Origin: Acidicapsa acidisoli
GTDB taxonomy: Bacteria > Acidobacteriota > Terriglobia > Terriglobales > Acidobacteriaceae
Reading direction: 5' to 3'
NCBI RefSeq assembly: GCF_025685625.1
Contig: NZ_JAGSYI010000005.1
Coordinates: 124,001-188,000, forward strand
Length of the DNA: 64,000 nucleotides
Shown: one piece after another, positions 3,232 through 61,901 of the stretch
Layout: each line of letters begins with the position of its first letter
Position numbering within the stretch: position 1 is the first letter of the stretch
Notes under the pieces: model-generated
Database searches by the model: none
Told to the model about the DNA's origin: nothing
The model's input: only the letters and a program-made list of their open reading frames with translations
Made by a program: the position numbers and the translations under genes

Positions 3232-3245
3232 CCAGACGGGCGCAT

Positions 3246-5448: not shown

Positions 5449-5474
5449 GGATAAGGAGATTTTCTGATGCACGA

Positions 5475-46264: not shown

Positions 46265-48049
46265 TCAGCTTACCTGCGCATTCGCGCCCGCGAGGAGAAA
46301 TACCAGCGGAGCATTCCAGTTGATGGCGACTTCGTTGAGTGAGTAAGCCCGTTGATCGTCCATCCACATCCGCATCGGCGGCAGGGTCGGCAGGGTCTTC
46401 GCCGCCTCGTCTCCTGGCCGGGCGTTGGGTCCGCCGGACATCAGTCCCGGCCACGGCGCTGTAATATCGTCGGCCGCGCTGGGACGATGATGCGGATGTT
46501 GAAACGGATTGGTTCCGACCTGGGTGACCCACGAGACGGCGAAGCAGTTGCGACCGAGCACGTAATGCACATTACCGAGCGCTGCCTCCACCGCTGCAGG
46601 TTCGTGCTGAAAATGATCCGCGATGAGCAACAGGAGCGACTGGTTGGCAGCCACGGAGTTTGAGCCCCAAATATAGTCGGTCAGCGCCATAGTATTTCCG
46701 TAACCGCTGAGCTTCCTCCGCTCGACGAGTTCCTGCGCTGCCTTTGCCGTCTGCTTACGGATACGCTCTTTCAGCGGCTCCGAACCTTTCCGATCCGCGA
46801 GAGCGTAGGTCCAGTAGGCCATCGGAGCGACGTAAACCCAATATGGCGCTTTGATGGCGCTCTCGGGTGCTTGCGCCGCAACTCCGTCAAGAAAGGCCAG
46901 CTCATATTGCCGCTCACCGGTCGTCCGCCACAGCTCGGCAGAGGCCCAGAATATCTCGTCATGACAGTGCTCGTCGCCATACTCACCGGTGCCAACCCCT
47001 GGAGGATTGGTAAACGTCACATCCGGGTTTGCGACAGCCCAGCTCCAGGCTCGTTTGGAAGCCGCGAGGCAGCGGGCCGAAAAAGATGCGTCATACTCCG
47101 AGTAGCAGCGGGCTGCAATGGCCATCACCGCCGCGAGGTCAGCGGTAGCGCATGTATTTTTGTACGGGGACGCCCCGGTGCCGATGATGTAGCTGGTCAG
47201 ATCGTCGCGCTCCGGCATGATGAAGGCGCAGAACTGCTCACTCGTCTGTTTATGCCAGACTCCGCCATCGTCATCCTGCAGGGATAGCATCCACTCCAGG
47301 TTCCAACGCACCTCGGCGAGGTAATCGGGCAACTTGACGCCGTATTGCTTGACGGAATTCGGAAGATCGAGAGAAAGGTTGCGTAGGATTTGCGGATAAA
47401 GCTCCCAGGCCCAGAGAAGCGTGCCGCAGGTGATGCCGCTGTTGACGATGTACCGGCCATAGTCGCCTGCGTCGTGCCATCCGCCGTGATTCACGACGGT
47501 GCCCTTGCGTCCGGAACTCGGGTGGTACGCGCCGGACAGGTGGCAAGCCGGATGACTGTACCCACCACCAAGATCGACAGCGCACCCGCATCGCTGCCCA
47601 TAAAAAGCCCGCATGGAGAGCCTCAGCGGCTCACGATAAATATCTTTTCCTATGGAAAATGGGTCGCTACGCTGGCCTTGCGCCACCAGCCGGTATATGC
47701 CTGGCGTAGTCAGCCGGGAGAAATCGGCGCGCACCACCCGATCGCTTGAGGCCGCATCTAAAATCGGCGCGGAGAGAGTGCCATTCAATACGGGAGACGC
47801 GACCTGCGCTGGCATATTCTCGGGCACAATCTGAAAGGAACTGTCGCCGCCGTGTTGGACGGGCAGAGTCGCAACTTTTTCAGCTCCGGGCAGATAGCCG
47901 GCCTGGTTCAATGCAAACAGCCGTGGGGATGCTCCGCCCTGCGCGGAGAAGCTTGATGGACACGCAAATGCGTCCTTTTCGGAAACTTTGTCAAAAGCCG
48001 CCGCAACAGCAGAAAGGCTCGCAAATTTCAAGACAGCTCGGCGATTCAT
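46265..48049 (-). CDS. GH9 family glycoside hydrolase, Tat-type signal
   Basis: The protein has 594 residues. The N-terminus (MNRRAVLKFASLSAVAAAF) is a likely twin-arginine signal. An N-terminal Ig-like domain (about 42-130; FALNQAGYLPGAEKVATLPV) precedes the catalytic barrel: the Asp pair in GGWHDAGDYGRYIVN (Asp193, Asp196) and the acid Glu573 in YSLNEVAINWNAPL, with HPHHRPSAAD before it. GH9 members are mostly endo-glucanases, but one branch consists of exo-beta-D-glucosaminidases. Because glucosamine-6-phosphate deaminase lies directly upstream, I favour the glucosaminidase role. It is the last gene of the 13.6-kb minus-strand locus. Confidence 0.9.
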   Translation of the reverse strand: MNRRAVLKFASLSAVAAAFDKVSEKDAFACPSSFSAQGGASPRLFALNQAGYLPGAEKVATLPVQHGGDSSFQIVPENMPAQVASPVLNGTLSAPILDAASSDRVVRADFSRLTTPGIYRLVAQGQRSDPFSIGKDIYREPLRLSMRAFYGQRCGCAVDLGGGYSHPACHLSGAYHPSSGRKGTVVNHGGWHDAGDYGRYIVNSGITCGTLLWAWELYPQILRNLSLDLPNSVKQYGVKLPDYLAEVRWNLEWMLSLQDDDGGVWHKQTSEQFCAFIMPERDDLTSYIIGTGASPYKNTCATADLAAVMAIAARCYSEYDASFSARCLAASKRAWSWAVANPDVTFTNPPGVGTGEYGDEHCHDEIFWASAELWRTTGERQYELAFLDGVAAQAPESAIKAPYWVYVAPMAYWTYALADRKGSEPLKERIRKQTAKAAQELVERRKLSGYGNTMALTDYIWGSNSVAANQSLLLLIADHFQHEPAAVEAALGNVHYVLGRNCFAVSWVTQVGTNPFQHPHHRPSAADDITAPWPGLMSGGPNARPGDEAAKTLPTLPPMRMWMDDQRAYSLNEVAINWNAPLVFLLAGANAQVS

Positions 48050-48163
48050 CGCCTCATCTTACGATATCCCGCACTTACCTTTCAGGAGGCCCATGCAAGA
48101 ACTCCAATGCTTCTCAATTCGGGAGAAAGAGTTTGGTAGGCATACTGCGGTCCTATCCCCCTG

Positions 48164-48955
48164 TCACTCTGCTTCCTCAAATTCCAGAAGTCCATTCAAT
48201 TCTGCTGCGGACTCCTTGTCCAGATACACGGTGGCATCAGGATGAGTGCGCAGAATGGAAGCTGGACAATCCGTTGAGATTGGGCCTTCGAGAGCTAACC
48301 GCATGATTTTAGCTTTCCGGCTACCAGGTACAGACCCTATCAAGGTGGGAACTCGAAACAATGCTGGAATTGTGAGAGTCATGGCGACCGTCGGAACCTC
48401 GTCAAGGCTCCTGAACCATCCTTCCGCGAACTGCTGTTCCCGGCATAACTCGTCAAGATGTACTACTTTCATATCGACTGGATCGTCAAAGCGCGCCTCG
48501 GCAGGATCGTTAAACGCCAAATGACCATTCTCTCCAACACCCATCAGACATAAACTTGGATTGGTTGATTGAATGTTGCCTATATACTCCCGGCACACAT
48601 CTTGAATATCCGGCGCAGTGCCATCTATCTCGAGGAACTCCTTCATTTGCACCTTGCTCGTCAAATTCTCCCGCAGATAGCGGCGAAACGAAGCTGGGTG
48701 ATCCGAAGACATCCCAACATACTCATCCAAATGGAAGCCTTTGATTTGCGACCAGGGCACATCAGCCATGGTCAGTGCATGGAGAGTATCGAGCTGGGAT
48801 GCCCCTGTGGCAAAGATAACTCCGATCGTTGCTTCGAGACGCCTTAGCTCGTTCAGCTTCTCGGCTGCAGCCTGGGCCGCGGCCTCACCTGCGGCTCGAC
48901 CGTTTTCGTGGACCTCTAGCTTCAAGTTCCCAACCTTAAAACGCTTCGTTTTCAC
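48164..48955 (-). CDS. nagB: Glucosamine-6-phosphate deaminase
   Basis: The protein has 263 residues, close to the normal 266. The signature HLDEYVGM (His75, Asp77) and the catalytic loop GVGENGHLAFNDP are intact, as are TGASQLDTLHAL (phosphate loop). It converts glucosamine 6-phosphate to fructose 6-phosphate and ammonia in the cytoplasm. GTG 48955 is preceded by AAGGAAA. The longer frame to 49030 overlaps the MFS gene end and has no ribosome site. It follows the MFS gene by 71 bases and precedes GH9 by 114, anchoring the locus to amino-sugar metabolism. No nagA or glucosamine kinase is present. Confidence 0.93.
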   Translation of the reverse strand: MKTKRFKVGNLKLEVHENGRAAGEAAAQAAAEKLNELRRLEATIGVIFATGASQLDTLHALTMADVPWSQIKGFHLDEYVGMSSDHPASFRRYLRENLTSKVQMKEFLEIDGTAPDIQDVCREYIGNIQSTNPSLCLMGVGENGHLAFNDPAEARFDDPVDMKVVHLDELCREQQFAEGWFRSLDEVPTVAMTLTIPALFRVPTLIGSVPGSRKAKIMRLALEGPISTDCPASILRTHPDATVYLDKESAAELNGLLEFEEAE

Positions 48956-49026
48956 GTGAGTTTCCTTCGTATGCCCTTCTTGGAATTTGATATCAGTTAC
49001 TTCTCGCTTACTGCGACCTACAACCC

Positions 49027-50331
49027 TCATTGGACCGTTTCTTTATATGGGCGAATCAAGAGAAAGATACAGACCGTTGCCAAGACAGGCAGCAGGCCTG
49101 CAACCAGGAATGCGGGGCCATACGATACCTTGTCCACCAGGATTCCAACGGCGAAAGTGAACCCCGCACCGACGAGACCTGCCGCAAAACCGCTAAAGCC
49201 TGTCACGGTAGCGACAAGATCCTGCGGGAAAAGATCCGATGGTAAGGTCAGGCCCATCGTGGACCAGCTCGCGTAACCCCACAAGGCAAAGCAAATCAGC
49301 GCTAATGCTGAATACACATTATGAACATGAGCGGCAGGGATGCCAGCGAGAACCGGCAAGCAACTAATCGCGCATACCCATTTCCTGGCGCTTACTACAG
49401 ACATGCCACGGCGAATGCAGTAACCCGAGATTAGCCCCCCAGTAAAGTTTCCAAGATCGGCCGCAACAAACGGTATCCACGCAAATAACGCGATTCGCTG
49501 CAGACTGAAACCGCGAGCATCGCTTAAATACTGCGGAAGCCAAAAGACATAAAACCACCAGATTGGATCGGTAAGTGCGCGACCCAAAACGACACCCCAA
49601 CAATTCGGATTCTTTGCCAGGGAAATCCACCTTGCAAGGCCCTGGTGTTCAGACTTGATAGGTGTATCCTGACCGGCGCGGATAAGGGAAACTTCCTCCT
49701 CTGTCACCCGCGTATGACGATCAAGCGGCTGATAGATGCGCAGCCATACGATCAGCCACACAAGCCCGAGGACACCGGAAAAGACAAATGACCATCGCCA
49801 CCCAAACATAATGGCAATCCAGGGAATAATCAGGGCTGCCAACGCCCCTCCGACGCTGGAACCGCTGTCGAAAATAGCAACCGCTGTGCTGCGCTCCGCG
49901 CTCGGAAACCATTCGGCTACGGTCTTGCTAGCCCCCGGCCAGTTGAGCCCCTCACCTATCCCGAGGGCAAAGCGAAAAATACTGAAACTGAAAACAGAAT
50001 GCGCAAAGCCCGTAAAGATATTCACCAGAGACCACAGGCCAGCGGCCAGCGCGAGGCCAAGCCGTGTTCCTATCTTGTCGAGGAAAATGCCGCCGAGGAG
50101 CCATGTAACCGCATACGAGATTTGAAACGCACCAAGGATTTTCCCGATATCCGTATGAGTAAGGTGATACTCGCTCGCGATCATCGGCGATAACACGGAA
50201 AAAGTCTGGCGGCTAAGGTAATTTGTAACGGTCGAAAAAAACAAAGTCCAGACAATCCACCAGCGCGTCTTGCTCTGTTTACGATCTTTCTTTACTAACT
50301 GCGGACTCGACGTGGACACATTTGTAAACAA
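49027..50331 (-). CDS. MFS transporter, ExuT/hexuronate-glucarate-like
   Basis: The protein has 434 residues with about twelve spans. ACS-type signals include WWIVWTLFFSTVTNYLSRQTF, the GIGEGLNWPGASKTVAEWFP segment (span 4, cut) and VTEEEVSLIRAGQ in the central loop, as in hexuronate and N-acetylhexosamine-type transporters. The start is TTG 50331, preceded by AGGAG at 8 bases. There is no usable ATG near. It lies between the TIM-barrel gene and nagB and would import the sugar released in the periplasm, probably glucosamine or an oxidised derivative, which is inference. Confidence 0.88.
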   Translation of the reverse strand: MFTNVSTSSPQLVKKDRKQSKTRWWIVWTLFFSTVTNYLSRQTFSVLSPMIASEYHLTHTDIGKILGAFQISYAVTWLLGGIFLDKIGTRLGLALAAGLWSLVNIFTGFAHSVFSFSIFRFALGIGEGLNWPGASKTVAEWFPSAERSTAVAIFDSGSSVGGALAALIIPWIAIMFGWRWSFVFSGVLGLVWLIVWLRIYQPLDRHTRVTEEEVSLIRAGQDTPIKSEHQGLARWISLAKNPNCWGVVLGRALTDPIWWFYVFWLPQYLSDARGFSLQRIALFAWIPFVAADLGNFTGGLISGYCIRRGMSVVSARKWVCAISCLPVLAGIPAAHVHNVYSALALICFALWGYASWSTMGLTLPSDLFPQDLVATVTGFSGFAAGLVGAGFTFAVGILVDKVSYGPAFLVAGLLPVLATVCIFLLIRPYKETVQ

Positions 50332-50431
50332 AGGCCATTCTCCTGAACGACTGAGCAGAGGCTCCCTAATGATAGATTGCGGTGACTCCTATAGCTACTG
50401 CGGAAGCTGGTTGCGACACCACATCTTTCCG

Positions 50432-50471
50432 CCGGCAGATGTTCAGCACTTTCGCGCCAGACATCTGCCGG
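50432..50471. promoter_or_regulatory. Inverted repeat between the TIM-barrel and MFS genes
   Basis: CCGGCAGATGT (50432-50442) pairs perfectly with ACATCTGCCGG (50461-50471) across an 18-base loop. Flanking bases extend the pairing imperfectly (ATCTTTCC against GGAAGGTGAT). It lies between the stop of the TIM-barrel gene and the MFS start, and could be an intercistronic stabiliser or an attenuator. Confidence 0.5.
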
Positions 50472-50569
50472 TTGGAAGGTGATATCTCTCCATCAGATGC
50501 ATACATCTTGCATCCAATCAAGACCTGTCCAGCGAAAGAACGGCCCTCGAACGCAATCATATGAATTGC

Positions 50570-51514
50570 TTAGACGCTTGAATACTTCTTACAGAGAGTC
50601 TTGATTTCATCCATCAGTTTCGGCACACCCGTAGAGGCGGGTAGACTGTCGGAAAAACTGGCTTCATACTCGGCCGAAACATAACCCTGGTGACCCGCTT
50701 GCGCGAGCATCTTCCACACGCGATCCATATCCACAGGAGTGTGATCGTAGAAGTGATCGCGTATGTGGATATTGCCGGTAGCGTAAGGAATGCATGCCGC
50801 AATCTGCGCATAAGCATCTTGTGTTGGCGTAGCAATAAAATTTGTAATATCGAGGTTGATACCGGCATAAGGGGTATCGAGGCGGTGCATAATCTCCAAA
50901 CATACATCAGAGGTCTGCGTCACCCCTTCGTGGTCTTCAAGTCCAAGCGTGACGCCCTTTTTGCCGGAATAGTCAGATGCTGCCTTCATCGCTTCAACCA
51001 CCCAATCGATGGCGTCCTTCATGTTCGCGCCGTTTGGCAGCTTACCGGCGAAGATCCTGAGATGGGAAGCTCCAAGCTCGTCTGTAACATCGACCCACTT
51101 CTTGATTTCGTTCAGAGTATCGGCGCGCTTCGCCGCGGAGGCCTGGACCATGCTGGCTCCGCATGACGCTCCCGAAAAAGCGATGCAATGCTTATAAGCG
51201 AGGTGGCGAAGACCGTGAAGATAATCAGGGTCCGTGGACTTGAGATAGTACACCGTCATATCCACGGCCGGTATTTGGAGTTCCACTGCCCTAAGGATGA
51301 AATCTTCCAAGGTCATCTTGCCATGCCTGAGATCCTTATCGTAGGAATAGGCGCAGCATCCCGGAATTAACCTGGCTACATTGGACTTGTCTGCGCCAGC
51401 ATCTGATTGCGCTGCGGCAGCTGTTCGCGCCTCGGCTATTCCCATACCTGCAGCCGCCAAAGCGCCCAGGCCAACGGTTTTCACAAACTGACGACGATCT
51501 ACAAAAGAACGCAT
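50570..51514 (-). CDS. Tat-exported sugar isomerase/epimerase-like TIM barrel
   Basis: The protein has 314 residues. The twin-arginine signal is VDRRQFVKTVGLGALAAAG (Arg7-Arg8). The mature part matches the xylose-isomerase-like TIM barrel group: a metal site of four residues is visible as Glu193 (LGLEDHEG), Asp222 (INLDITNF), His250 (NIHIRDH) and Glu282 (SAEYEAS). Family members isomerise or epimerise sugars and also act on 3-keto sugars made by Gfo/Idh oxidoreductases. With two such oxidoreductases upstream in the same locus, acting on an oxidised glycoside in the periplasm is the leading hypothesis. It stands 56 codons or more from LacI with a 376-bp gap. Function inferred. Confidence 0.88.
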   Translation of the reverse strand: MRSFVDRRQFVKTVGLGALAAAGMGIAEARTAAAAQSDAGADKSNVARLIPGCCAYSYDKDLRHGKMTLEDFILRAVELQIPAVDMTVYYLKSTDPDYLHGLRHLAYKHCIAFSGASCGASMVQASAAKRADTLNEIKKWVDVTDELGASHLRIFAGKLPNGANMKDAIDWVVEAMKAASDYSGKKGVTLGLEDHEGVTQTSDVCLEIMHRLDTPYAGINLDITNFIATPTQDAYAQIAACIPYATGNIHIRDHFYDHTPVDMDRVWKMLAQAGHQGYVSAEYEASFSDSLPASTGVPKLMDEIKTLCKKYSSV

Positions 51515-51890
51515 CCTGTCTCCCGCACCTTGAGTTATGAAGATCTCTAGAGCACACCACTTACGACATTCGCCAGTGACGCCTGATAGTTAGACCAGAG
51601 TAGCCATCCGCCAATGCATTGTCAATAGAAAATTTCCTCATAATATTAAGAATATTTTCGCATGAAAGATGAGCACTTCCAGCATCGAGATGTATAAGCG
51701 TTCAGGACGGGAGTCTATGGTTCAAAGAGATGCCTCTTGCCTTTTTAAGAGAAATTGAACCAATAGCAGAGGCAGGTGGTCGCGCGTAGATCCCGGCGTC
51801 CGGCAGCACACTCTACTTCGAAGAAGAAATGCGCTGTCGCGAATGCCCGTGCCGCAAAAGGCTTCGCAATACCGCTGCAGAATTGCGATT
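51515..51890. promoter_or_regulatory. Intergenic region upstream of the TIM-barrel gene
   Basis: No gene is seen in these 376 bp between lacI-type regulator and TIM-barrel gene. CAATGCATTG (51612-51621) is a perfect 10-bp palindrome about 100 bases upstream of the TIM-barrel start, and the neighbouring stretch 51620-51660 is AT-rich, so a promoter with operator is likely here. It is a candidate target of the LacI regulator, untested. Confidence 0.4.
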
Positions 51891-52994
51891 CTACGTTCGG
51901 CTTCGGTGCCCAGCACTTAATACTTCTTCGGCCACGGCCTGAATCGGGGCGCACGAATCCCTCTTGATAAATTCGGTCGGAATGGTTACGCGCTGAGGGT
52001 CCTGGCCAGGATTGGCGATTCGATTGAGAATCAGTTCCACCATGTGTTTTCCCAGTTCCTCCGGAAATTCCCGGATGGTCGTCAACCCCGGATACAACAA
52101 TGACCCGACCGTGTCATTACAGCCTGCAACACTGATATCTTCAGGAATTCTCAGGCCGCTCTCCCGAAGAGCTTTATACACTCCGGCCGCAGTGGAATCA
52201 TTTCCAGCAAAGATAGCCGTGATAGGTTCTCCGCTGGAGAGTAAAGACTTCGTGCCAAGATATCCAATTTGCGTGTCGTTCTCAGAGTCGATACTGCTTT
52301 GATGTCGCTCCAGGCCAGCCTCTTCCATTGCCCGGCGATAACCAGAAAAGCAGCGTGCAAACCACGGCAGACGAGTATTTCCCACGAACCAGATGTGACG
52401 ATGGCCCGCGCCAATCAAATATTTCGTTATGTCGTACCCGCCTTGAATGTCATCGGAAAAGATCACGTCATTCTGCAAACTTTGAGGTTGGCCGATAAGA
52501 TTATTGCCAAGAAGCACGAACGGGATGTCTTTGCTATTTAACAGCTCGATCAGGTTATTCGAGTTGGTTCCCGCCAGGATAAGCCCTCGGACCACGTCTC
52601 GGCGCTGCACCACTTTAGGCATGGTCAGGTCTTTCGAGGAAACGTTCGGCGAGTAATTGAAGGACAAGAACACCATGTCCCAGCCGTGGGTTGCGCAGCA
52701 CGCTTCCGCTCCCGTCAAAATACGCAAATGAAAGTCATGCAACATCGTACGGTTGCAAACCAGAAATGCCAGCGCCTTGGGCTTGTGCCGCTCGGAGAGA
52801 TCAATTTCGAGCTTCGCAGCCGCCTCCAGGACCAACTTGCGAATGGCCGGATCGACCCGATTATTTCCATTGAGAACTCGAGAAACGGAGGTGATGCTTA
52901 CGTTTGCGAGAGACGCGATTTCTTTCAAGCCAGACTTAGGCTTTTTAGGGCTTGGGCTAGTGTCCTTGGTACGTTTGGTAGAGGTCGATCTCAA
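51891..52994 (-). CDS. LacI family transcriptional regulator
   Basis: The protein has 367 residues from TTG 52994. The LacI helix-turn-helix is LKEIASLANVSITSVSRVLN with the hinge helix NNRVDPAIRKLVLEAAAKL after it. The C-terminal effector domain has IWFVGNTRLPWFARCFSGYR, ITAIFAGNDSTAAGVYKAL and EDISVAGCNDTVGSLL. The TTG is chosen because GGAG lies 8 bases upstream. An ATG at 53042 would add 16 residues of hydrophobic sequence and lacks a ribosome site. It sits in the middle of the amino-sugar locus, transcribed with it, and probably represses it until a sugar binds. Confidence 0.9.
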   Translation of the reverse strand: MRSTSTKRTKDTSPSPKKPKSGLKEIASLANVSITSVSRVLNGNNRVDPAIRKLVLEAAAKLEIDLSERHKPKALAFLVCNRTMLHDFHLRILTGAEACCATHGWDMVFLSFNYSPNVSSKDLTMPKVVQRRDVVRGLILAGTNSNNLIELLNSKDIPFVLLGNNLIGQPQSLQNDVIFSDDIQGGYDITKYLIGAGHRHIWFVGNTRLPWFARCFSGYRRAMEEAGLERHQSSIDSENDTQIGYLGTKSLLSSGEPITAIFAGNDSTAAGVYKALRESGLRIPEDISVAGCNDTVGSLLYPGLTTIREFPEELGKHMVELILNRIANPGQDPQRVTIPTEFIKRDSCAPIQAVAEEVLSAGHRSRT

Positions 52995-53203
52995 TTCGCT
53001 TTCTCCAACAACCTGAGCAAAGAAAATCAGGCTCAATTTCATGACCATAGCGACAGACACGCAGAGATGCTGTCGGGACTGGCCCCTAAACTCCAACGCA
53101 TAAGAATACAGAAATTTTTCTGAAGCTACAAGGAACATTCTTTCCGCAGAAACTACGGCTTGTTGAGTCCCCCATACAAGTCGTTTACAACTGATCCCGG
53201 AAA

Positions 53204-54610
53204 CTAGACCTCTTCCGGCACCACGAACGGCGTACGATATCCGCGATCTCCATCGCGCAGCAGATGGTTGGCCTCGTCGTCATTCTTCACCAGTTGCGTC
53301 TCGGGATCGAAAGTCAGTGTTCTCCCAAGCCGATAAGATACGTTCGCCAAATGCGCCAAACTGGAAGAGATGTGACCTTCCTCAATGGGTGCGCGCAGAT
53401 CCTCCTTCTTTCGACTGATCACGCAAGCAATAAAATTTGCAAAGTGATCTTCGGGTCCTTGCGGCGCGGATGGGCCCGGTTGCTGCTCTTTACCCATCGA
53501 AGTGCGGTAGCCGCCGGCAAAGTCATCCAGCGCAAGGTATCCCTTCGAACCGTAAAAAATATTTCCAATTGTGTTGTAGTCTCCCTCTAACGGACCCACG
53601 CCTCCTTGAACGGTTTCATCCAATCGTATGGAAGCGTCAAAGCGGGTTCCAACTCCGGCTTCGTGGTTCGATATCCAATGTCGAACCTCGAACTCCAGCA
53701 TCTTGTGTTTTCCGCCAGGCAAGTCATATTGAAACGAACAATGCAGCGTGTTAGGAGTCTGCTGGTCATCGTCAAACATGAAGTGGCCGCCCATCGCTGA
53801 AATCTTATTAGGAAAGCCAACACCCAGTCCCCATCTAGCGATATCCAGTTCATGGACACCTTCATTGCCCACATCGCCGTTTCCATAATTCCAAAACCAA
53901 TGCCAATTGTAATGAAAACGATTCTTAGTGAAGGGCAGGTAAGGAGCCGGGCCGGTCCACAGATCGTAATCAACGCCAGAGGGGATCGGCGATGCAGGCG
54001 TGTGGCCGATCGTGTCGCGCCACTTCAAACAAAGACCGCGAGACATATAGACATCGCCCAAAAGCCCGCTCTGAATCTCTTTGATGGCTTGCATGACTGT
54101 GGCATTGGAGCGATACTGCGTCCCATGCTGTACGATGCGGTTGTATTTCACGGCCGCGCGCACCAGTTGCCCGCCTTCCCATAAATTATGCGAGCAGGGC
54201 TTCTCCACATACACGTCCTTGCCCGCCTGGCACGCCCAGATGGCCATCAGCGCATGCCAGTGGTTGGGCGTATTGATCGAAACGGCATCAATCGATTTAT
54301 CTTCGAGAAGCTTGCGGATATCGACATAAGTCTTCGGCTGAAAGCCCATCTTCTGCACCGTTTGCAGATGCTCCCGCATCACGCCGTCATCGATATCGCA
54401 GAGCGCTGCAATTTCAACATTCGGTAGTGCACCAAATCTACGAATGTGCTCCGCTCCGGAACCTCGTAGTCCGACAATTGCCACCCTTACTCTGTCGCTG
54501 GCGCCTAGAACACTCCGCGATGTTCTCCACTCCTGTAGCCGCTCGGCTGCCGCAGCCACCACAAGCACTTCAGCTCCCGTCTTCAGAAGCTCTTTCTGTT
54601 TTTCATCCAT
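53204..54610 (-). CDS. Gfo/Idh/MocA family oxidoreductase 1 (twin-arginine lost)
   Basis: The protein has 468 residues, with NAD(P) loop VAIVGLRGSGAEHIRRFG, the YVEKPCSHNLWEG catalytic-lysine motif, and the C-domain NEGVHELDIARWGLGVG and RDGDRGYRTPFVVPEEV tail. The family oxidises or reduces sugar carbons, often to 3-keto forms. It is a tandem paralog of the next gene (54733-56193), with nearly the same C-terminus. The N-terminus KQKELLKTGAE aligns with the twin-arginine signal RREFLKTGAK of the paralog but has no arginine pair, so export by Tat is not expected. ATG 54610 matches the paralog start. ATG 54628 is an alternative. It overlaps a TTTACA-CT-TGTAAA repeat at its 5' end. Confidence 0.9.
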   Translation of the reverse strand: MDEKQKELLKTGAEVLVVAAAAERLQEWRTSRSVLGASDRVRVAIVGLRGSGAEHIRRFGALPNVEIAALCDIDDGVMREHLQTVQKMGFQPKTYVDIRKLLEDKSIDAVSINTPNHWHALMAIWACQAGKDVYVEKPCSHNLWEGGQLVRAAVKYNRIVQHGTQYRSNATVMQAIKEIQSGLLGDVYMSRGLCLKWRDTIGHTPASPIPSGVDYDLWTGPAPYLPFTKNRFHYNWHWFWNYGNGDVGNEGVHELDIARWGLGVGFPNKISAMGGHFMFDDDQQTPNTLHCSFQYDLPGGKHKMLEFEVRHWISNHEAGVGTRFDASIRLDETVQGGVGPLEGDYNTIGNIFYGSKGYLALDDFAGGYRTSMGKEQQPGPSAPQGPEDHFANFIACVISRKKEDLRAPIEEGHISSSLAHLANVSYRLGRTLTFDPETQLVKNDDEANHLLRDGDRGYRTPFVVPEEV

Positions 54611-54631
54611 CCTAGTGAAACCATCCATTCC

Positions 54632-54645
54632 TTTACACTTGTAAA
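54632..54645. promoter_or_regulatory. 14-bp inverted repeat at the oxidoreductase 1 start
   Basis: TTTACA and TGTAAA flank a CT spacer directly upstream of the coding start. GTTTACAA half sites also occur at 50322-50329 and 53183-53190 in the locus. This could be a LacI-type operator. Evidence is weak. Confidence 0.3.
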
Positions 54646-54697
54646 AGACACCCTCTTCGGAACGTCGGACAGGTTCGACTGCCGATCGGTTGAGTGT

Positions 54698-54716
54698 CAT
54701 AAGTCTTTGACTTATG
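54698..54716. promoter_or_regulatory. 19-bp inverted repeat between the oxidoreductase paralogs
   Basis: CATAAGTC (54698-54705) and GACTTATG (54709-54716) are perfect complements around TTT. It lies 17 bases after the stop of oxidoreductase 2 and upstream of oxidoreductase 1. It could be an operator, an mRNA processing hairpin or a weak attenuator. Confidence 0.45.
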
Positions 54717-54732
54717 TGAGAGACGCGAAAGT

Positions 54733-56193
54733 CTAGACCTCTTCCGGCACGACAAACGGCGCTCGATATCCACGGTCTCCGTCGCGCAGCAGGTAGTTGG
54801 CCTCATCGTCATCCTTGACCAATTGCGTCTCGGGATCGAAGGTCAGAGTTCGCCCGAGCCGGTACGAGGCGTTGGCCAAATGCACCAATCCGGCAGAAAT
54901 GTGACCTTCGGTTATCGGTGCTCGAAGCTCCTCTTGTTTCCGGCTGATCACGCAGGCAATGAAATTTCCAAAGTGATCCTGATCTTCCGGCCTGTGAGGC
55001 ATGGACGGGCCGGCCTTCTGCTCTCTTCCCATCCAGGTCCGGTAACCGCCTAGCACGCTGTCGACAGCCAGGTAACCCTTCGATCCATAGAAGATATCTC
55101 CGACAGTGTTCTCATGTCCGCTGCCGCCATAACTCGGATACAGATCCTGCGCGCCGCAACCGCCATGTGGACAGTTTGGAACGGCGGCTGCCTGGGCCGT
55201 TTTGGGCCTCGCATCGGCATTCGCTCGGGCTCCGATTTCAGCTTCGTGGTTGGTCATCCAATGGCGAACCTCGAATTCGATCATCTTGCGCTTTCCGTCA
55301 GGCAGATCATACTGGAAAGCGCAGCTCAGTGTATTCGGGGTCTGCTGGTCATCCTCAAACACGAAGTGTCCACCTATGGCGGAGATCTTATTGGGAAAGC
55401 CCAGACCCAATCCCCAGCGGGCGATATCTACCTCATGAACACCCTGATTTCCAATATCTCCGTTGCCATAGTTCCAAAACCAATGCCAGTTGTAATGAAA
55501 ATGATTCTTGGTAAAAGGCTGGTAAGGAGCCGGTCCAGTCCAGAGATCGTAATCGACGCCGGCAGGAACTTCCGATACCGGCGTGCGACCGATCGTATCT
55601 CGCCATTTGTAGCAAAGGCCGCGAGCCATATAGACATCGCCTAACAGCCCGTCTTGCATCTGCTTCACGGCCTGCATGACCGACGGAATCGAGCGGCTCT
55701 GCGTTCCATGCTGCACCATTCGGCCATATTTCGCTGCCGCGCGCACCAATTGCCTGCCTTCCCATAAGTTATGCGAGCATGGCTTCTCTACATAGACGTC
55801 CTTGCCCGCCTGGCACGCCCAGATCGACATAAGAGTATGCCAGTGGTTAGGCGTCGCAATCGAAACAGCATCAATCGACTTGTCTTCGAGCAGCTTGCGA
55901 ACATCGGTATACGTCTTCGGTCGAAAGCCCATCTTCTGCACCACTTGAAGATGCTCGCGCAGCACACTGTCGTCGATATCGCAGAGCGCCGCAATCTCAA
56001 CATTCGGAAGCGTTCCAAATCTCTGAATATGCTCCTGACCGCGTCCGCGTAATCCAATAATTCCCAGCCTGACCCGGTCGCTGGCTCCCAGTACGGTCCG
56101 CGGCGTGCGCCACGCCTCAAGACGTTCGGCTGCTGTAACCAACGCGAGCGTTTTTGCTCCCGTCTTTAGGAACTCTCTTCTAGTCTTGTCCAT
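54733..56193 (-). CDS. Gfo/Idh/MocA family oxidoreductase 2, Tat-exported
   Basis: The protein has 486 residues with twin-arginine signal KTRREFLKTGAKTLALVTAA (Arg5-Arg6). NAD loop LGIIGLRGRGQEHIQRFG, EKPCSHNLWEG and the EVDIARWGLG segment match the paralog at 53204. Unlike the paralog it has an insertion after the NHEAE region containing CPHGGC, with two Cys four residues apart, where the paralog has a shorter loop. This loop usually lies near the substrate pocket. Oxidation of the C3 hydroxyl of a glycoside in the periplasm is the family's common role. The ATG has GGTGG upstream. It follows TonB receptor 2 after a 91-bp gap with a hairpin. Confidence 0.92.
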   Translation of the reverse strand: MDKTRREFLKTGAKTLALVTAAERLEAWRTPRTVLGASDRVRLGIIGLRGRGQEHIQRFGTLPNVEIAALCDIDDSVLREHLQVVQKMGFRPKTYTDVRKLLEDKSIDAVSIATPNHWHTLMSIWACQAGKDVYVEKPCSHNLWEGRQLVRAAAKYGRMVQHGTQSRSIPSVMQAVKQMQDGLLGDVYMARGLCYKWRDTIGRTPVSEVPAGVDYDLWTGPAPYQPFTKNHFHYNWHWFWNYGNGDIGNQGVHEVDIARWGLGLGFPNKISAIGGHFVFEDDQQTPNTLSCAFQYDLPDGKRKMIEFEVRHWMTNHEAEIGARANADARPKTAQAAAVPNCPHGGCGAQDLYPSYGGSGHENTVGDIFYGSKGYLAVDSVLGGYRTWMGREQKAGPSMPHRPEDQDHFGNFIACVISRKQEELRAPITEGHISAGLVHLANASYRLGRTLTFDPETQLVKDDDEANYLLRDGDRGYRAPFVVPEEV

Positions 56194-56232
56194 GTCGGCA
56201 CCACCATTTGTTTTTTTTGGGCGCTCTCGTCG

Positions 56233-56265
56233 AAGGGACAACCGGAAAACTTCCGGTTGCCCCTT
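56233..56265 (-). terminator. Hairpin between TonB receptor 2 and oxidoreductase 2
   Basis: A 15-bp stem (56233-56247 with 56251-56265) with a 3-base loop and one pair that is A-C on the plus strand but U-G in minus-strand RNA. It starts about 20 bases after the receptor stop, but no U-tract follows. It may attenuate or stabilise, so downstream genes could be made at a lower level than the receptor. Confidence 0.5.
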
Positions 56266-56284
56266 GTCCTCCAGAATTCTGCTA

Positions 56285-59200
56285 CTAGAACACAAACTTC
56301 CCGGCAAATTGCAAGATGCGTGGGTTATGTGCGCTCGTTGCTGTCAGGAAGGCGTTGTTCGAACAGTTCTCCGCGCCATAACAGGAATTGGCGTTGATCG
56401 CGCTCCATTGAGTATGGTTAAAGATGTTAAAGGCCTCCGCTCGAAATTCGAAGTGCATGGTGTCGCGCACTGCAAAGTTCTTGAACAGGCCCATGTCGTA
56501 CTCCGTGCGAGTAGGTATTCTGAGTATGTCACGACCAGCATTGCCATATGTCAGACCCTGTGGATCGACAAACGCATCGCTGTTGTATAGCCGCGGACCT
56601 GGCTGCCCGATCGGATGCCGGATCGCTGCAGGACCATGAATATTCCCTATGACATCCGGATACGACGTTACAGTACTTACGGAATTTCCAGTGCCTGCGT
56701 TATCTACGTAATTCGTGTTAACAACGCTGAATGGCGCGCCGGTCTGGAAGGTTGTCAGGTCGGATACCTGCCATCCACCAAACACCGGGCGCAATAGTTT
56801 TTGCTCCTTCAGTTTCGGAAGGTCGTAGACGGCGCTTGCTTCCAGCACATGCTTCTCATCAAAGGTGGAACTCGCCATGGTGGCGCGGGGATTGTTGCTA
56901 TTGACAACTTCCGTCGACCCTCCATCCGAGCCATCGTCGATCGAGTGGCCGTAGGTATAAGCAACGCTTCCATTGAGCTTTCCAAAGTAACGCGAGATGC
57001 CGACCTGAAGAGCATTGTAGTTAGACTGACCCGCGTTATGGATATAAGTTATCCCGTTCAGCCCCATGTAGGGGCGATAGGGCGCCGCAGAATTTCCGCA
57101 AGCAATGACCAGATGATTCAATACATTTCCGGTTACCGCCTGGCCATTGACAGTTCCGGTGTAGTTTCCGTTCACATTCTCCGAGAGGCTATTGCAATCG
57201 TTGGCGGAAATCGCCTGGCCGGGCCCATAGGGATTCTCGGAAGCCGAGAGCGGCTGTAGCTGGTTTAGGTCCGTTCGGATCGGCAGGTGCATACCTAAGC
57301 TGCCAACATAAGAGGCCTGCATCGTGACATGGCGAGGCAGCTCTCCCTGTACAGTCAGATTGTATTGCTGAACATAGGGCCAGACAGCCTTGGTGGGAAT
57401 GGCGATCGTAGCAAGCGGGAACTCCAGTCCTCCGCCGCCTACGTTGTTAAAGCCCGTAAAGTCGAACTCCTGAGGATTGGTCACTACCGGCGCCGTGCCC
57501 TCCAGGCTTTCCGAATTACTCTCGTTACCGTTCGTATGCTCAAAGAAGATGCCGTAGCCTCCGCGAACTGACAGCTTACCAGACCCGAAGACGTCATAGG
57601 CAAAGCCAACACGCGGCGCCGGATTGAAAAGATGTCCCGACATACAACCGTCGGACACTCCATTGAGACCGCAACTGACGATCCCGTTGAAGATATTGCC
57701 AGTGCCCGGGATGAGCGCGCCCGGTTGACCTGTGATGTTTCCGGAGACATCGATCGTCGGCGCATTCGCCGCGCTCCACGCTGCCGATTCAAAATTTCCG
57801 GACTGCTTGCTGATGTCTTCATAAGCTCCGTAGAGACTCAGACGAAGGCCAACATTCAACGTGAGTTTCTGGTTCACGCGCCAGTTGTCCTGAAGATACG
57901 GTTCTACAATCTTGTAGCGGTTGTAGTACACCGGCGTAGAGGAAAACTGTGAAAACTTGGCCACCTGTCCGGTTAGAAAATCGGCGAAGCCGTTATGCGA
58001 TCTCAACTCTGGACTGGCAATAAAGGTAAAGGAGCCCTGAGTGTTTCCCGGGTTCTGCGCCTCGTTCTTCTGAGCAGCGATCAAGCTTACCCCGAAGATC
58101 AGCGTGTGGTTCTTCAAAGTCTTGGTCAGCATATCGCTGTAGCTATAAGTCGGATTTGAATTCTTCCACGGAAAGAATCCCGTATTCACAACGAATCCAC
58201 CACCATAGGCAGGGTCGGTGACAAACAGACTCGGCAGAGTATTGCCGTCATATCCATTATTGAAAAATCCGTTGCCCGTGAAACCTTGCCGGCTGATATC
58301 GGTGGTGATGTTCTTCATATTATTCTTATCGGTTGTATAATCAGCCACGAACTCGTTGACCAGTGATGGCGAGACAGTATAGGTAAGATTCGCCACCATA
58401 TCTACGCCTGGCACCTGGTAGGAGTTCTGCACCGTGGGAAATGAGTTGTTTTGCCAGGTCGGCGAGGTTTCAGTTGTGTTCCACGATTCATAGATAAAGC
58501 GATAGAATGCCCGCAGCTTTTCGTTGATCACCTGATCGACGCGGAAGACCTCGGTAGCACTCGTGGTCAGCTGTGCCGGTGACGACTGATAGAAAGATGA
58601 GGTCCCAGATCCTACGTTCGCCTCTGGAATCAGGGCATTCATCATGACTGCGGCATTTGGGTCGATAGGCACCCGGTTGTTGGGGTAATACGTTCCGGTT
58701 GTCGAGTCTACCGGACAACTGGGGTAGTCGGCTGTATCGAGCGGGCTTCCGGCGACAGGGCAAAGGTCTGAAAAATCTCCCGTGCGCTCTGCGTTTGAAG
58801 GTACCTGCTGGTTATAAACATTGCTCGGCACAAGTTCGTTCCGAAACTCCTGCGAATAGAAAAAGAACGTCTTTCTCAGCGCAGGATTGTAGAACTTCGG
58901 GATGGCGAAAGGTCCTCCCAGGGTAAATCCATAATCGTGCTTCTTGTAAACCGGAACCGTTTGCTCAAAGTAGTTTCGCGAATTGAAGGCATTATTGCGC
59001 AAGAATTCAAAGACATCGCCGTGGTATTGCTCAGTGCCGGACTTAGTCTGTGCCAGCACGGTGCCAGAGGCGTTCCGACCGTACTGCGCTCCATAGTTTG
59101 AAGTCAGCACTTCAGTTTCCGCAATCGCGTCAATACCGGGATAGACGTTGAGATTATTGTTGCTGCCGTTATCCATGATGGTAGCGCCGTCCAGCTCCCA

Positions 59201-59872
59201 GTTGTTGTACTCCACGCGACCGCCATTCATACTGAACTGTACGTTGCCAACATGGCCGCCTGCGCCCTCATCCCTCCCGGTCTGGTTGACTACTCCGGGC
59301 GTGAGGGTGACCAACTGGCTGAAGTCGCGGCCATTCAACACCAACTGCGTAATCTGCGTCGCAGTAATGGTCCCGGAAAGCTCAGCCGACTCTGTCTGTA
59401 CCGTACCCATCTCGTTGGCTTCAACCTCGACTGCCGAGGTCACCGCACCGACCGTCATTTTTACGTCCACGCGTTCAGTTTGTGAGACGCGCAAAATAAT
59501 ATCCTTCGCCTCATACGTTTCAAATCCGGGGGCCGTCACCTGGAGCATGTAGGTACCCGCCTGTAAGGCAGGGAAATCATAGTCCCCTGTCGTATTGGCG
59601 ATGGCCTTGATGACGGTTCCCTGAAGGGTTTCCGTCAATGTCACCTCTGCATTAGGAATGGCCGCACCACTTCCATCCGTAATACTCCCGTTAATCGCGC
59701 CGGATTGCTGGGCTGACAGGCGGCTCGGAATCCATAGAAACAAACACGAGAAAAGAACACAAAATGCGATTGCTTGCATTCGATAGGCAACTGTCCGACA
59801 CATGCTCTGCCGCATGGAATCACAGCCCAAAGGACGAGGAACCTTCAGAGAAAAGAGTGCCTGGCTCAACAT
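56285..59872 (-). CDS. TonB-dependent receptor with carboxypeptidase-like N-domain (receptor 2)
   Basis: The protein has about 1195 residues. A signal segment (AIAFCVLFSCLFLWIPSRL, cleaved near SAQQ) is followed by a carboxypeptidase-like domain (AINGSITDGSGAAIPNAEVT, GDYDFPALQAGTYMLQVTA), a plug (FSMNGGRVEYNNWELDGATI), and a long barrel ending RILQFAGKFVF with a terminal aromatic. It would bring large ligands through the outer membrane with TonB energy. ATG 59872 has GGAGG 11 bases upstream; ATG 59815 and GTG 59890 are possible. It is the first gene of the amino-sugar locus, so its ligand is probably the oligosaccharide handled downstream. This link is by position. Confidence 0.92.
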   Translation of the reverse strand: MLSQALFSLKVPRPLGCDSMRQSMCRTVAYRMQAIAFCVLFSCLFLWIPSRLSAQQSGAINGSITDGSGAAIPNAEVTLTETLQGTVIKAIANTTGDYDFPALQAGTYMLQVTAPGFETYEAKDIILRVSQTERVDVKMTVGAVTSAVEVEANEMGTVQTESAELSGTITATQITQLVLNGRDFSQLVTLTPGVVNQTGRDEGAGGHVGNVQFSMNGGRVEYNNWELDGATIMDNGSNNNLNVYPGIDAIAETEVLTSNYGAQYGRNASGTVLAQTKSGTEQYHGDVFEFLRNNAFNSRNYFEQTVPVYKKHDYGFTLGGPFAIPKFYNPALRKTFFFYSQEFRNELVPSNVYNQQVPSNAERTGDFSDLCPVAGSPLDTADYPSCPVDSTTGTYYPNNRVPIDPNAAVMMNALIPEANVGSGTSSFYQSSPAQLTTSATEVFRVDQVINEKLRAFYRFIYESWNTTETSPTWQNNSFPTVQNSYQVPGVDMVANLTYTVSPSLVNEFVADYTTDKNNMKNITTDISRQGFTGNGFFNNGYDGNTLPSLFVTDPAYGGGFVVNTGFFPWKNSNPTYSYSDMLTKTLKNHTLIFGVSLIAAQKNEAQNPGNTQGSFTFIASPELRSHNGFADFLTGQVAKFSQFSSTPVYYNRYKIVEPYLQDNWRVNQKLTLNVGLRLSLYGAYEDISKQSGNFESAAWSAANAPTIDVSGNITGQPGALIPGTGNIFNGIVSCGLNGVSDGCMSGHLFNPAPRVGFAYDVFGSGKLSVRGGYGIFFEHTNGNESNSESLEGTAPVVTNPQEFDFTGFNNVGGGGLEFPLATIAIPTKAVWPYVQQYNLTVQGELPRHVTMQASYVGSLGMHLPIRTDLNQLQPLSASENPYGPGQAISANDCNSLSENVNGNYTGTVNGQAVTGNVLNHLVIACGNSAAPYRPYMGLNGITYIHNAGQSNYNALQVGISRYFGKLNGSVAYTYGHSIDDGSDGGSTEVVNSNNPRATMASSTFDEKHVLEASAVYDLPKLKEQKLLRPVFGGWQVSDLTTFQTGAPFSVVNTNYVDNAGTGNSVSTVTSYPDVIGNIHGPAAIRHPIGQPGPRLYNSDAFVDPQGLTYGNAGRDILRIPTRTEYDMGLFKNFAVRDTMHFEFRAEAFNIFNHTQWSAINANSCYGAENCSNNAFLTATSAHNPRILQFAGKFVF

Positions 59873-60427
59873 TCGGTAGAAGACCTCCACAGAGAAGCAT
59901 TATTTTTCTGCTATTTGAAATAGAAGTTGCGATTTCGTGTTGAACCGTAGATTGAAGCAAATCAATTATGGAAGTCAAGGAAAAAAATTAAATAATAAAG
60001 AAAATTTCCCCAACATCCACCAAATCTTCCCCGAACATTCGACGTTTTCCCCTCGCAATGCATCTGAACGCTTGTGTTTACCGTGATTTACTTCACGCCC
60101 AAAATCTGTTCAAAGGGTTGATTTCCGCCGCACCAATAGGACAATCTTGGCTGCTATCCCAAACCAGATTCCGGTCATCGATTGCGCGCGTCAAGCGCTC
60201 TCGGATGAGATTCGATAAAAAACGCTTGAATCGAAAGCAGTACCGGATTATTGTGTCCCACAGATGTCCATCTCAGGTTTTTGCCGGGCGTTTGGGACAA
60301 AAAGACAACATAGAGAGCTGCCCCCACTGGACAACTGGGGTTCATTCGCAGCTTACCTTGAGCGTTTCATTGAGATTTTTTCCTTAAAGCGGTGCAGCCG
60401 TCCCCTGGAGTTCGCCAGGAGCTATCC
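59873..60427. promoter_or_regulatory. Divergent promoter region, receptor 2 and TPR protein
   Basis: No gene is seen in these 555 bp. The first part (59900-60050) is very AT-rich, with A-tracts, and is the likely promoter of the receptor-led locus. CTATTTGAAATAG near 59912 is a small palindrome. The segment 60060-60090 has two TTTAC repeats. No regulator target can be fixed. Confidence 0.4.
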
Positions 60428-61771
60428 TTGCTAACTAACAAAATGAGTTATAAGACCTATAACAGCTCGCAGCTGATCTCCCGATCATGTCGGACGGACG
60501 GTAGCCGAGCTTTAAAACTGCGCTGCAGGTTTCGCTTTCTCCTGGCATTTTTTCTCGTCCAGGGAATTCTGCTCCCCATCTTCGCCGCTATGCTAGAGAG
60601 CGAAGCTTCGGCCGCCACACCTTTACGAACACCTCTACTCGCGGCAGACGCCGGACAAACTCCTGATCAGACCGGAGCTAACCCTGCGGTCTTCTTTCAT
60701 CAAGGCAAGGAAGCCCTCCAAGACGGCAAACTGGCGCTCGCAGAAGAGGACTTCCAAAGGGTCATCGCCCTGGACCCACAATCGAGTGGTGCCCATGTCA
60801 ATCTGGCCGTCTCCTACATGCGCGAGAAGCGATGGGATAGCGCCCTGGCCGAACTGAAGAAGGCTGACGTGCTTTCTCCAAATGAACCTGGGATCCAATT
60901 AAACATTGGGCTTGCTTACTATAGAAAAAACGACTTTGCGTCAGCGATCGAGCCGTTCTCCGCGATCCTGCAGCGGACGCCGGACTCGCTTCAGGCAAGG
61001 TACCTCCTCGGACTTTGCTACTTTTTTACGAGCAGATATAAAGAAGCCTCTGAAACTCTTGCGCCACTGTGGCCAACTGAGTCGCATAACCTGAACTATC
61101 TATATGTGATCAGCATAGCGGCCAGTAAGTCAGACAACCCCGCCCTGCAACAACAGTCTTTCAATCAGATGCTTGCCATTGGCCAAGATAAGCCAGAGTT
61201 TCATTTGTATGTCGGCAAGGCATGGCTGGCGGAAGATAACACTATCAAAGCACTTGAAGAGTTCAAAGCTGCTGCGGCTGCGCAGCCAGATCTTCCCTTA
61301 GTGCACTACTTTCTTGGGCGTACCTATCTTGAACAGCACGCCGATCAACTGGCCGAGACAGAATTGCAAAAAGATACATTACTCAATCCAGACTTCGCCT
61401 ACGACTACGAAGATTTGGGTGTCTTGTATGCACGGCTGAATCAAACTGACAAAGCCGAACATAGCTTCCGCCAAGCGATCGAGCTCGATAAGACGCTCGT
61501 GAATTCCTACATCGGCCTGGCCAAGCTATACCGGCGATCCTCCCGTTTCCGGGAGGCGCTGGAGATGTTGGATCACGCCGTAGCCCTGGCGTCGCAGAGC
61601 GCCAGCGTGCATTATCTAAGGGCACAGGTGTTGACGCATCTAGGTGACACCGTAAATGCACAACTGGAATTTGATACTTCGGCAAAGTTACTCAAGTCGT
61701 TCAACGACCAAGTGCAACAGAACCTGTCAGGCGATCGAACAGCAGATGCACAGCATGCCGCGCAGCAATAG
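60428..61771 (+). CDS. Membrane-anchored TPR protein
   Basis: The protein has 447 residues from TTG 60428, which has AGGAG (60417-60421) 6 bases upstream. ATG 60443 is the alternative and a GTG at 60392 is unlikely. A single hydrophobic segment (FRFLLAFFLVQGILLPIFAA) acts as signal anchor, followed by at least seven tetratricopeptide repeats (EALQDGKLALAEEDFQRVIA with cut, AHVNLAVSYMREKRWDSALAE, YLLGLCYFFTSRYKEA, and later ones to KLLKS). TPR proteins act as docking scaffolds. It stands just before the VCBS/UnbV-type protein, a combination common in acidobacteria. Confidence 0.87.
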   Translation: MLTNKMSYKTYNSSQLISRSCRTDGSRALKLRCRFRFLLAFFLVQGILLPIFAAMLESEASAATPLRTPLLAADAGQTPDQTGANPAVFFHQGKEALQDGKLALAEEDFQRVIALDPQSSGAHVNLAVSYMREKRWDSALAELKKADVLSPNEPGIQLNIGLAYYRKNDFASAIEPFSAILQRTPDSLQARYLLGLCYFFTSRYKEASETLAPLWPTESHNLNYLYVISIAASKSDNPALQQQSFNQMLAIGQDKPEFHLYVGKAWLAEDNTIKALEEFKAAAAAQPDLPLVHYFLGRTYLEQHADQLAETELQKDTLLNPDFAYDYEDLGVLYARLNQTDKAEHSFRQAIELDKTLVNSYIGLAKLYRRSSRFREALEMLDHAVALASQSASVHYLRAQVLTHLGDTVNAQLEFDTSAKLLKSFNDQVQQNLSGDRTADAQHAAQQ

Positions 61772-61901
61772 AAATCGATGACGCAACCCGTTCAAACGAA
61801 TTTGGCGCCTCTGCTCACGATCCCATAGCTCATTGAACAAGCCAGAATTGCACCATGGAAACGTCTTTCTTTTCCTCTATGTTCTAACTGGAGTGTGCCG
61901 G

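Follow-up and report, generated by a model that had tools for sequence, protein, structure and literature searches.

The window analysed here, 64,000 nt of Acidicapsa acidisoli contig NZ_JAGSYI010000005.1 (positions 124,001 to 188,000, forward strand), carries eight consecutive minus-strand genes between 46265 and 59890 (Table 1): a TonB-dependent receptor (TBDR), two Gfo/Idh oxidoreductases (Gfo2 and Gfo1), a LacI-family regulator, a TIM barrel protein with a twin-arginine translocation (Tat)-type motif, an MFS transporter, a NagB-like protein (NagBL) and a glycoside hydrolase of family GH9. The reading that we favour, with about even confidence, is that the genome has a probable LacI regulon of three loci, this one included, which centres on an uncharacterised NagBL subfamily and serves an oxidative glycoside route. 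The original prediction, made from the letters of the window, was of an oxidoreductive system for amino-sugar glycans such as chitosan. Its observation holds and its interpretation holds partially: the novelty lies in a probable regulon and in a NagBL clade of its own, and not in the GH9/chitosan link. All eight open reading frames (ORFs) were found in the predicted order, Pfam backing each assignment; the predicted coordinates differ from the ORF calls only in the choice of start codon at the TBDR end.

The gene predicted to be nagB did not prove to be a canonical one. NagBL scored 123.6 bits against TIGR00502 (curated cut-off 236.9) and 132.2 bits against NF001684 (cut-off 326). The three NagBL genes of the genome gave 122-130 bits each with TIGR00502, and no NagB above that cut-off was found in the genome, where NagBL is the nearest thing to it. 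Public genomes were searched for relatives with the patterns NGH[LI]AFND and FH[ML]DEY[VIC][GD], the residues of which are therefore partly fixed by construction; there were at least 592 confirmed matches, and 80 loci were kept. E. coli NagB was aligned with 91 sequences, of which the pattern search had supplied 76 and other sources 15. The alignment revealed changes fixed in 91/91, namely T44S, P45Q, D141N, E148D and Y85F. T44S and P45Q lie outside the search patterns and D148 is there by construction for the loci found via NGH[LI]AFND. The canonical TGGTP phosphate loop is thus not kept, S-Q being found instead; the other motifs of the window copy are ENGHLAFNDP and CREQQ. D141N was dropped as a distinguishing change since B. 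subtilis NagB also has Asn there. The loss of Arg172, considered as a sign of a lost phosphate site, was abandoned because other Acidobacteria NagB-like proteins align poorly in this region and lack Arg172 too. In E. coli NagB, Asp72 and His143 are catalytic and Glu148 is a member of a His-Glu relay. NagBL keeps D72, H143 and K208 (E. coli numbering) in 91/91, the first two residues being within the patterns that found 76 of the 91 sequences; Lys208 is the phosphate Lys of NagB according to the available part of PMC8369159. The AlphaFold model of NagBL (30 sequences) had a mean predicted local distance difference test score (pLDDT) of 94.8. A tree of 96 rows, including E. coli NagB and other NagB- or 6-phosphogluconolactonase-like proteins of Acidobacteria, set 84 NagBL rows apart by one branch (support 95/80; 92% of 200 bootstrap trees), with long branches flagged by the program for three rows, one of them E. 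coli NagB. Judged by alignment and tree, NagBL is a separate clade with fixed active-site changes. Plasmid records label its members glucosamine-6-phosphate deaminase or 6-phosphogluconolactonase, labels that this large clade carries despite differing at fixed active-site positions.

The association of LacI, NagBL, MFS and Gfo genes recurs in Acidobacteria. When 250 genomes of the class were searched with NagBL, the TIM barrel and Gfo2, close matches were obtained in 59, 89 and at least 108, respectively. From the 59 genomes with NagBL, 20 stretches were fetched, covering 19 of them. Of the hits with at least 49% identity, this set lacks those of G083, G121 and G131 as well as a second, partial one in G282 (G and L numbers are our labels for genomes and loci). 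The scoring, within 8 kb, covered 40 distinct loci, several of them on short contigs and three (L056, L070 and L071) being close relatives. Gfo was found in 23, TBDR in 21, MFS and LacI in 18 each, TIM-type and AXE1-type esterase genes in nine each, Amidohydro_2 in seven, DUF6807 in six, and GH9 (the window) and a nagA-type gene in one each. Nine of the 40 (L177-L181, L183, L184, L189 and L195) had been chosen partly for Gfo2 or TIM hits on the same contig. Among the 31 not picked for linkage, window included, Gfo was present in 16, LacI in 13, MFS in 11, a TIM-type gene in seven and GH9 in one; the predicted company of the nagB-type gene and the oxidoreductases is thus no rarity in relatives. 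Gfo lay within 150 bases of NagBL in 9/31, which is a stronger sign than its mere presence. Close LacI homologues (52-73% identical) occur in many NagBL loci of relatives, and close Gfo2 homologues stand 38-1228 bp from NagBL in G126, G194, G103 and G090. The fullest sets are those of G103 and G090 (L179 and L180: LacI, DUF6807, a Gfo2-like protein at 58-59%, Amidohydro_2, NagBL at 56% and MFS at 60%); in Edaphobacter modestus (L076) LacI (73%), NagBL (61%), MFS (76%) and a Gfo1-like protein (71%) were found. Silvibacterium bohemicum (L074) is another relative that carries related genes. The TIM barrel joins the association mainly in the window's own family.

A palindrome resembling TGAGAAAATTTTCTCA recurs in the upstream regions of NagBL loci. 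A strict palindrome scan had missed this motif, giving five scattered sites; it was first spotted by eye and then tested by near-match, genome-wide and position weight matrix (PWM) scans. In 29 loci (relatives and this genome) there were 42 near-matches, not all before genes, versus 5.9 in simple base shuffles. A PWM derived exclusively from other genomes (16 sites) returned five sites scoring at least 15 on the 64 kb window, all of them above 17 and four of them in the locus (17.3-23.8). For comparison, 2 Mb of first-order Markov sequence of locus composition contained three matches at or above 17, and 147 kb of other stretches of the same genome three sites at or above 15, two of these in stretches fetched because of whole-genome consensus matches. 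Twelve places in the whole genome had at most three mismatches to the consensus, and six in the reversed-pattern control. Four of the 12 are at NagBL loci, two at the window locus, one at C2 and one at C4; the last, between NagBL and Gfo-TIM, is the only one-mismatch place in the genome. The C2 site was among the 17 sites first used, those of C4 and C5 were not. Because the palindrome is common to all three NagBL loci of the genome and precedes TBDR, LacI and TIM barrel genes, these sequences suggest a single LacI regulon. With a single LacI protein and a single DNA motif for three loci of the same genome, the inducer, and hence the substrate, would be testable.

The motif is not universal, since L186 and L187 (with a similar LacI, 62%) have no near-match and the sole near-match of L179 and L180 (LacI 52%) is not before LacI. 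The other eight genome-wide places were not retained as regulon members, their number being near the control count: one falls within a TBDR-type gene, another precedes such a gene by about 1.5 kb, and the remaining six have no match to the reference sugar-gene set within 3.5 kb (a Gfo/Idh hit is 3.8 kb away in L199). The genome's second NagBL locus (L039, 9357-17811) has NagBL divergent from Gfo, TIM (71%) and TBDR genes, with the genome's best operator-like match between them.

As to the enzymes, the original prediction pointed to pairs of Gfo/Idh and TIM-barrel proteins known from 3-keto-glycoside breakdown. For both Gfo/Idh proteins the best named family is glycoside 3-dehydrogenase (NF058561; 138.6 bits for Gfo1, 150.8 for Gfo2). 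They are paralogues, 77% identical, and the nearest PDB chain of Gfo2 is 8tdf ('Dehydrogenase'). The metal site predicted for the TIM barrel (E193, D222, H250 and E282/E284) is present and conserved across 13 aligned sequences, window included: D222, E282 and E284 are identical in 13/13, and E193, H195 and H250 are each kept in 12/13. The predicted Tat motif of this protein, DRRQFVK, was also found; the other Tat-type sequence motifs with RR are TRREFLK in Gfo2 and NRRAVLK in GH9. In 3-keto-glycoside beta-eliminases (CGE, OGE, LgdB1), as described in the available part of PMC10628242, successive strands supply the metal ligands Glu/His, Asp, His and Glu, and the catalytic His follows the first of these by two residues. 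The window TIM barrel fits this pattern (E193-x-H195, D222, H250, E282/E284), which is a sequence pattern not exclusive to lyases, and no solved eliminase was among its four PDB sequence matches. For the MFS protein the best subfamily match is the D-galactonate transporter TIGR00893 (254.8 bits, below the cut-off of 395).

The favoured route would run as follows. A glycoside would enter through the TonB receptor and be oxidised in the periplasm, most likely at C3, by a putatively Tat-exported, glycoside-3-dehydrogenase-like Gfo/Idh. The metal-dependent TIM barrel, putatively Tat-exported too, would then either break the activated glycosidic bond in a beta-elimination or process the keto sugar. 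The oxidised or acidic sugar would be imported by the MFS protein, and NagBL would catalyse an aldose-ketose isomerisation or a deamination in the cytosol. LacI would sense an intermediate and control two units, TBDR-Gfo2-Gfo1-LacI and TIM-MFS-NagBL; GH9, which is read from the same end, is probably independent of them. It is because of the Gfo family match, the precedents of dehydrogenases working with TIM-barrel lyases, and the metal residues and Glu-x-His of the TIM barrel that we infer periplasmic oxidation and elimination; the position oxidised, the imported compound and the NagBL reaction are inferred as well. The substrate may be a neutral, uronic or amino sugar: amino sugars are suggested by the wider clade, and esterified or acidic glycans by the close loci. 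If the route is true, a wider range of glycans would be cleaved by oxidation rather than hydrolysis in soil Acidobacteria.

Several observations weigh against this reading. The Gfo1 and Gfo2 scores are far below the NF058561 cut-off of 750, and the family scores are under equivalog cut-offs; Gfo1 has QKELLK at the position of the Tat motif and lacks RR; and Glu-x-His is also found in 4ovx, an uncharacterised TIM barrel. Nine of the 29 loci have no near-match to the palindrome, and the fifth PWM site of the window (8136-8153, score 19.0) is outside the locus. In five of the 40 loci (L054, L055, L071, L081 and L185, two of them at contig ends) no partner family occurs within 8 kb. Three of 15 control stretches, which were not random, hold Gfo, so that the presence of Gfo alone is just moderately enriched. 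Distances read by eye from the match tables, many contigs being short, place Gfo2 and NagBL within 6 kb in 6 of the 41 class genomes having both, among the matches listed (G000, G126, G194, G103, G090 and G259). The TIM barrel and NagBL are within about 16 kb in 5/37 (G000, G051, G169, G259 and G282, four of them in the window's own family). Close homologues of Gfo2 and TIM are thus mostly found away from NagBL, whose association with LacI, MFS and Gfo/Idh enzymes in general is more constant. The fifth PWM site falls within an ORF (6973-8361), shortly before the one that follows.

GH9 stands apart from the other genes. The original prediction counted it in the unit and pointed to the exo-glucosaminidases of its family; neither its membership of the unit nor an exo-glucosaminidase role is supported. 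Its 23 PDB matches are led by the endoglucanases 3x17, 4cj0 and 1clc and do not include 6gdt, 5dgr or 3h7l, which are GH9 exo-glucosaminidases according to the available part of PMC6096475. None of the other 39 loci has a GH9 gene. The homologues of relatives (49-66% identity; stretches fetched for five of six genomes) stand elsewhere, with no NagBL, MFS or TIM match in their neighbourhoods; of the four longer stretches, only L171 has a Gfo hit. The G+C content at third codon positions (GC3) is 0.667 for GH9 versus 0.52-0.62 for the other seven genes. By its sequence matches GH9 is probably an endoglucanase-type neighbour independent of the core unit, and the chitosan/GH9 part of the original prediction is not supported. 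On the opposite strand, 2.4 kb from GH9, a protein (41081-43909, +) carries an AHPDDE motif that we take to be typical of PIG-L/LmbE de-N-acetylases; a PF02585 PIG-L gene stands beside the TIM barrel in L045.

An amino-sugar route along the lines of the original prediction is conceivable, if rather unlikely: a glucosaminide would be oxidised and cleaved in the periplasm, imported and phosphorylated, with NagBL as glucosamine-6-phosphate deaminase, while nagA and a kinase of the BadF type would contribute in trans. The nagA and kinase genes, said to be missing in the original prediction, have candidates elsewhere in the genome (one nagA above cut-off, far away, and BadF-family kinases); NagBL, its closest counterpart of NagB, retains D72, H143 and K208. 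Neighbours in the clade at large fit such a role. Outside the window's subclade, nagA-type genes, found with a profile from one neighbour cluster, lie within 5 kb of NagBL in 25 of 71 kept loci, as do Gfo/Idh genes (25/71); for plasmid loci the nagA count is 6/8. One member of the nagA cluster, scanned against NCBIfam, was above the nagA cut-off (245.5 versus 225.65). A Spirosoma plasmid has nagA, NagBL, a beta-N-acetylhexosaminidase and Gfo/Idh in one locus. Because nagA-type genes are so often near NagBL there, an amino-sugar role is favoured for the clade outside the window's subclade. Within the subclade (22 loci, 21 of them distinct, L042 and L084 being on the same contig) Gfo is within 5 kb in 11/22 and nagA-type genes in 0/22 (1/40 at 8 kb), and GH20, the only amino-sugar glycosidase family tested, is found in 0/22 and was counted in none of the 40. 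The partners are instead AXE1-type esterases, GH28, Amidohydro_2 and DUF6807. T44S, P45Q and E148D, all fixed in NagBL, also argue against this route. So does the nagA upstream region: nagA was rejected as a regulon member, no operator-like hit scoring at least 8 lying within 1.8 kb before it (the nearest, score 8.9, is at 5046 in L168, the gene starting at 6860).

Two further features of the clade at large were observed. A cluster, of which the one scanned member belongs to the Nramp transporter family, is near NagBL in 11 loci (L082, L085, L086, L093, L095, L098, L099, L101, L134, L137 and L147) and within 400 bp of it in 9/71, which suggests that this Nramp homologue serves an unusual function. 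In seven loci of Nostocales cyanobacteria (L096, L102, L105, L106, L129, L145 and L151) NagBL is opposite a gene of a single cluster, the scanned member of which is a HAD-type hydrolase.

Unlikely, in our estimate, is a uronic or acid-sugar route, in which acidic or esterified plant-type glycans would be attacked, Gfo/Idh would form a keto sugar or lactone, the MFS protein would import a sugar acid and NagBL would be an isomerase or lactonase-like enzyme. The subfamily nearest the MFS protein, the esterases and the Amidohydro_2 and DUF6807 genes of the close loci, with one GH28, all fit it. A protein beside the TIM barrel in three relatives resembles GH79 by eye, one scanned copy having no Pfam match. 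Against it, none of the eight window genes is uronate-specific, and an unsystematic look at the scanned neighbours gave one FGGY kinase but no sugar-acid dehydratase or aldolase. The genes further along in L179 resemble a ketoacyl-synthase/methyltransferase cluster.

A bolder extension of the favoured reading strikes us as improbable: NagBL would have a new activity, isomerising or deaminating the oxidised sugar (3-keto or acid) that the periplasmic Gfo/TIM pair sets free, the three LacI-controlled loci would make up an undescribed oxidoreductive route for an amino sugar or another glycoside with no need of a classical glycosidase, and the nagA-linked copies in other phyla would share its chemistry. 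A chance neighbourhood of unrelated sugar genes sharing one direction would agree with gene sets that differ widely between loci, with Gfo2 and TIM homologues mostly away from NagBL and with GH9, which does resemble a chance neighbour, but is very hard to believe given how many genomes have LacI, MFS, NagBL and Gfo in company, and given an operator-like site common to all three NagBL loci.

The features of the locus are listed in Table 1. The start of Gfo2 is probably the ATG near 56193. The true LacI start is probably at about 53042-53048, where it was placed because the operator-like site falls within the longest ORF. MFS and NagBL overlap by four bases and the remaining intergenic gaps are of 32-376 bases; TBDR and Gfo2 overlap solely when the longest ORF is used. 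Neither promoter-like (8 matches versus 9.4 expected from shuffles) nor terminator-like sequences (15 versus 14.3) were in excess. Literature searches returned no paper on this gene set, a weak test since names with slashes are unsearchable.

Table 1. Genes and operator-like sites of the NagBL locus (positions in the window)
Feature	Position	Strand	Basis
TBDR, TonB-dependent receptor-type outer membrane protein	56285..59890	-	Pfam CarboxypepD_reg, plug, OMP barrel
Gfo2, Gfo/Idh/MocA oxidoreductase, TRREFLK Tat-type motif	54733..56193	-	Pfam GFO_IDH_MocA, NCBIfam, PDB sequence match
Gfo1, Gfo2 paralogue, QK in place of Tat RR	53204..54700	-	Pfam GFO_IDH_MocA
LacI-family regulator	51891..53138	-	Pfam LacI
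TIM barrel, Tat-type motif DRRQFVK, E193-x-H195 and metal residues	50570..51514	-	Pfam AP_endonuc_2
MFS transporter	49027..50331	-	Pfam MFS_1
NagBL, NagB-like protein	48164..49030	-	Pfam Glucosamine_iso
GH9 with CelD_N domain and RR motif	46265..48049	-	Pfam GH9
Operator-like palindrome before TBDR gene	59996..60013	.	PWM 17.3
Operator-like palindrome before probable LacI start	53107..53124	.	PWM 23.8
Operator-like palindrome before TIM barrel, tandem copy 1	51646..51663	.	PWM 17.3
Operator-like palindrome before TIM barrel, tandem copy 2	51624..51641	.	PWM 18.3

Other neighbours were seen in passing. Downstream of the NagBL genes of G103, G090 and G143 (in L179, at 1388-6686) are genes for FAD oxidoreductases, YceI, a ketoacyl synthase and a methyltransferase, probably a separate biosynthetic cluster. 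A 621-647 aa neighbour in L074 and L076 was rejected as a glycosidase, having no Pfam match; the L076 copy gave weak PDB matches (E values of 0.022, to an Fn3-like protein, and 0.39). A LarA-type (Lar_N) gene is near Gfo/Idh genes in a relative (L043, 14513-15805), and another, assigned by clustering, lies about 11 kb from the end of the window locus in the genome analysed here (L058, 7520-8788). At 60392-63794 (+) a TPR-like protein is followed by a 653 aa protein resembling, by appearance, FG-GAP/UnbV_ASPIC; a Pfam-confirmed UnbV_ASPIC gene is near the Gfo/TIM locus of L043.

Comparison with known systems places the locus as follows. NagBL is of the same superfamily as NagB (PDB 2bkx, 1dea), is 28% identical to the E. 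coli protein over 239 residues and shares D72, H143 and K208 with it; it differs in forming a separate clade below the cut-offs, with T44S, P45Q and E148D fixed. With the Vibrio exo-glucosaminidases the window gene has the GH9 family in common, but the structures 6gdt, 5dgr and 3h7l are not among its matches. An oxidoreductive disaccharide pathway of Bacteroides thetaiotaomicron, BT2156-2160, was reportedly described in a 2024 paper. Its BT2158 is, in the available part of PMC11300592, a periplasmic glycoside 3-dehydrogenase, and the Gfo/Idh family of BT2158 is the best named match of Gfo1 and Gfo2. They differ from it in score (139 and 151 bits versus the equivalog cut-off of 750). The window locus differs in having no PF06439 3-keto-disaccharide hydrolase among its eight genes (six such genes are elsewhere in the genome) and in adding LacI, NagBL and MFS. 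The last precedents are the levoglucosan route (LgdA/LgdB1/LgdB2/LgdC) and the Agrobacterium OGE operon, in both of which, as far as the available parts of PMC7676230 and PMC10628242 describe, a Gfo/Idh dehydrogenase works together with lyases of the TIM-barrel fold that are encoded beside it and carry the annotation sugar phosphate isomerase. The metal site of these lyases (Asp, His and Glu plus a catalytic His) is as in the window TIM barrel, but the OGE structure 8BVK is not among its four PDB sequence matches. Unlike these systems, the window locus has Tat-type motifs on the TIM barrel and Gfo2, and includes a TonB receptor and NagBL.

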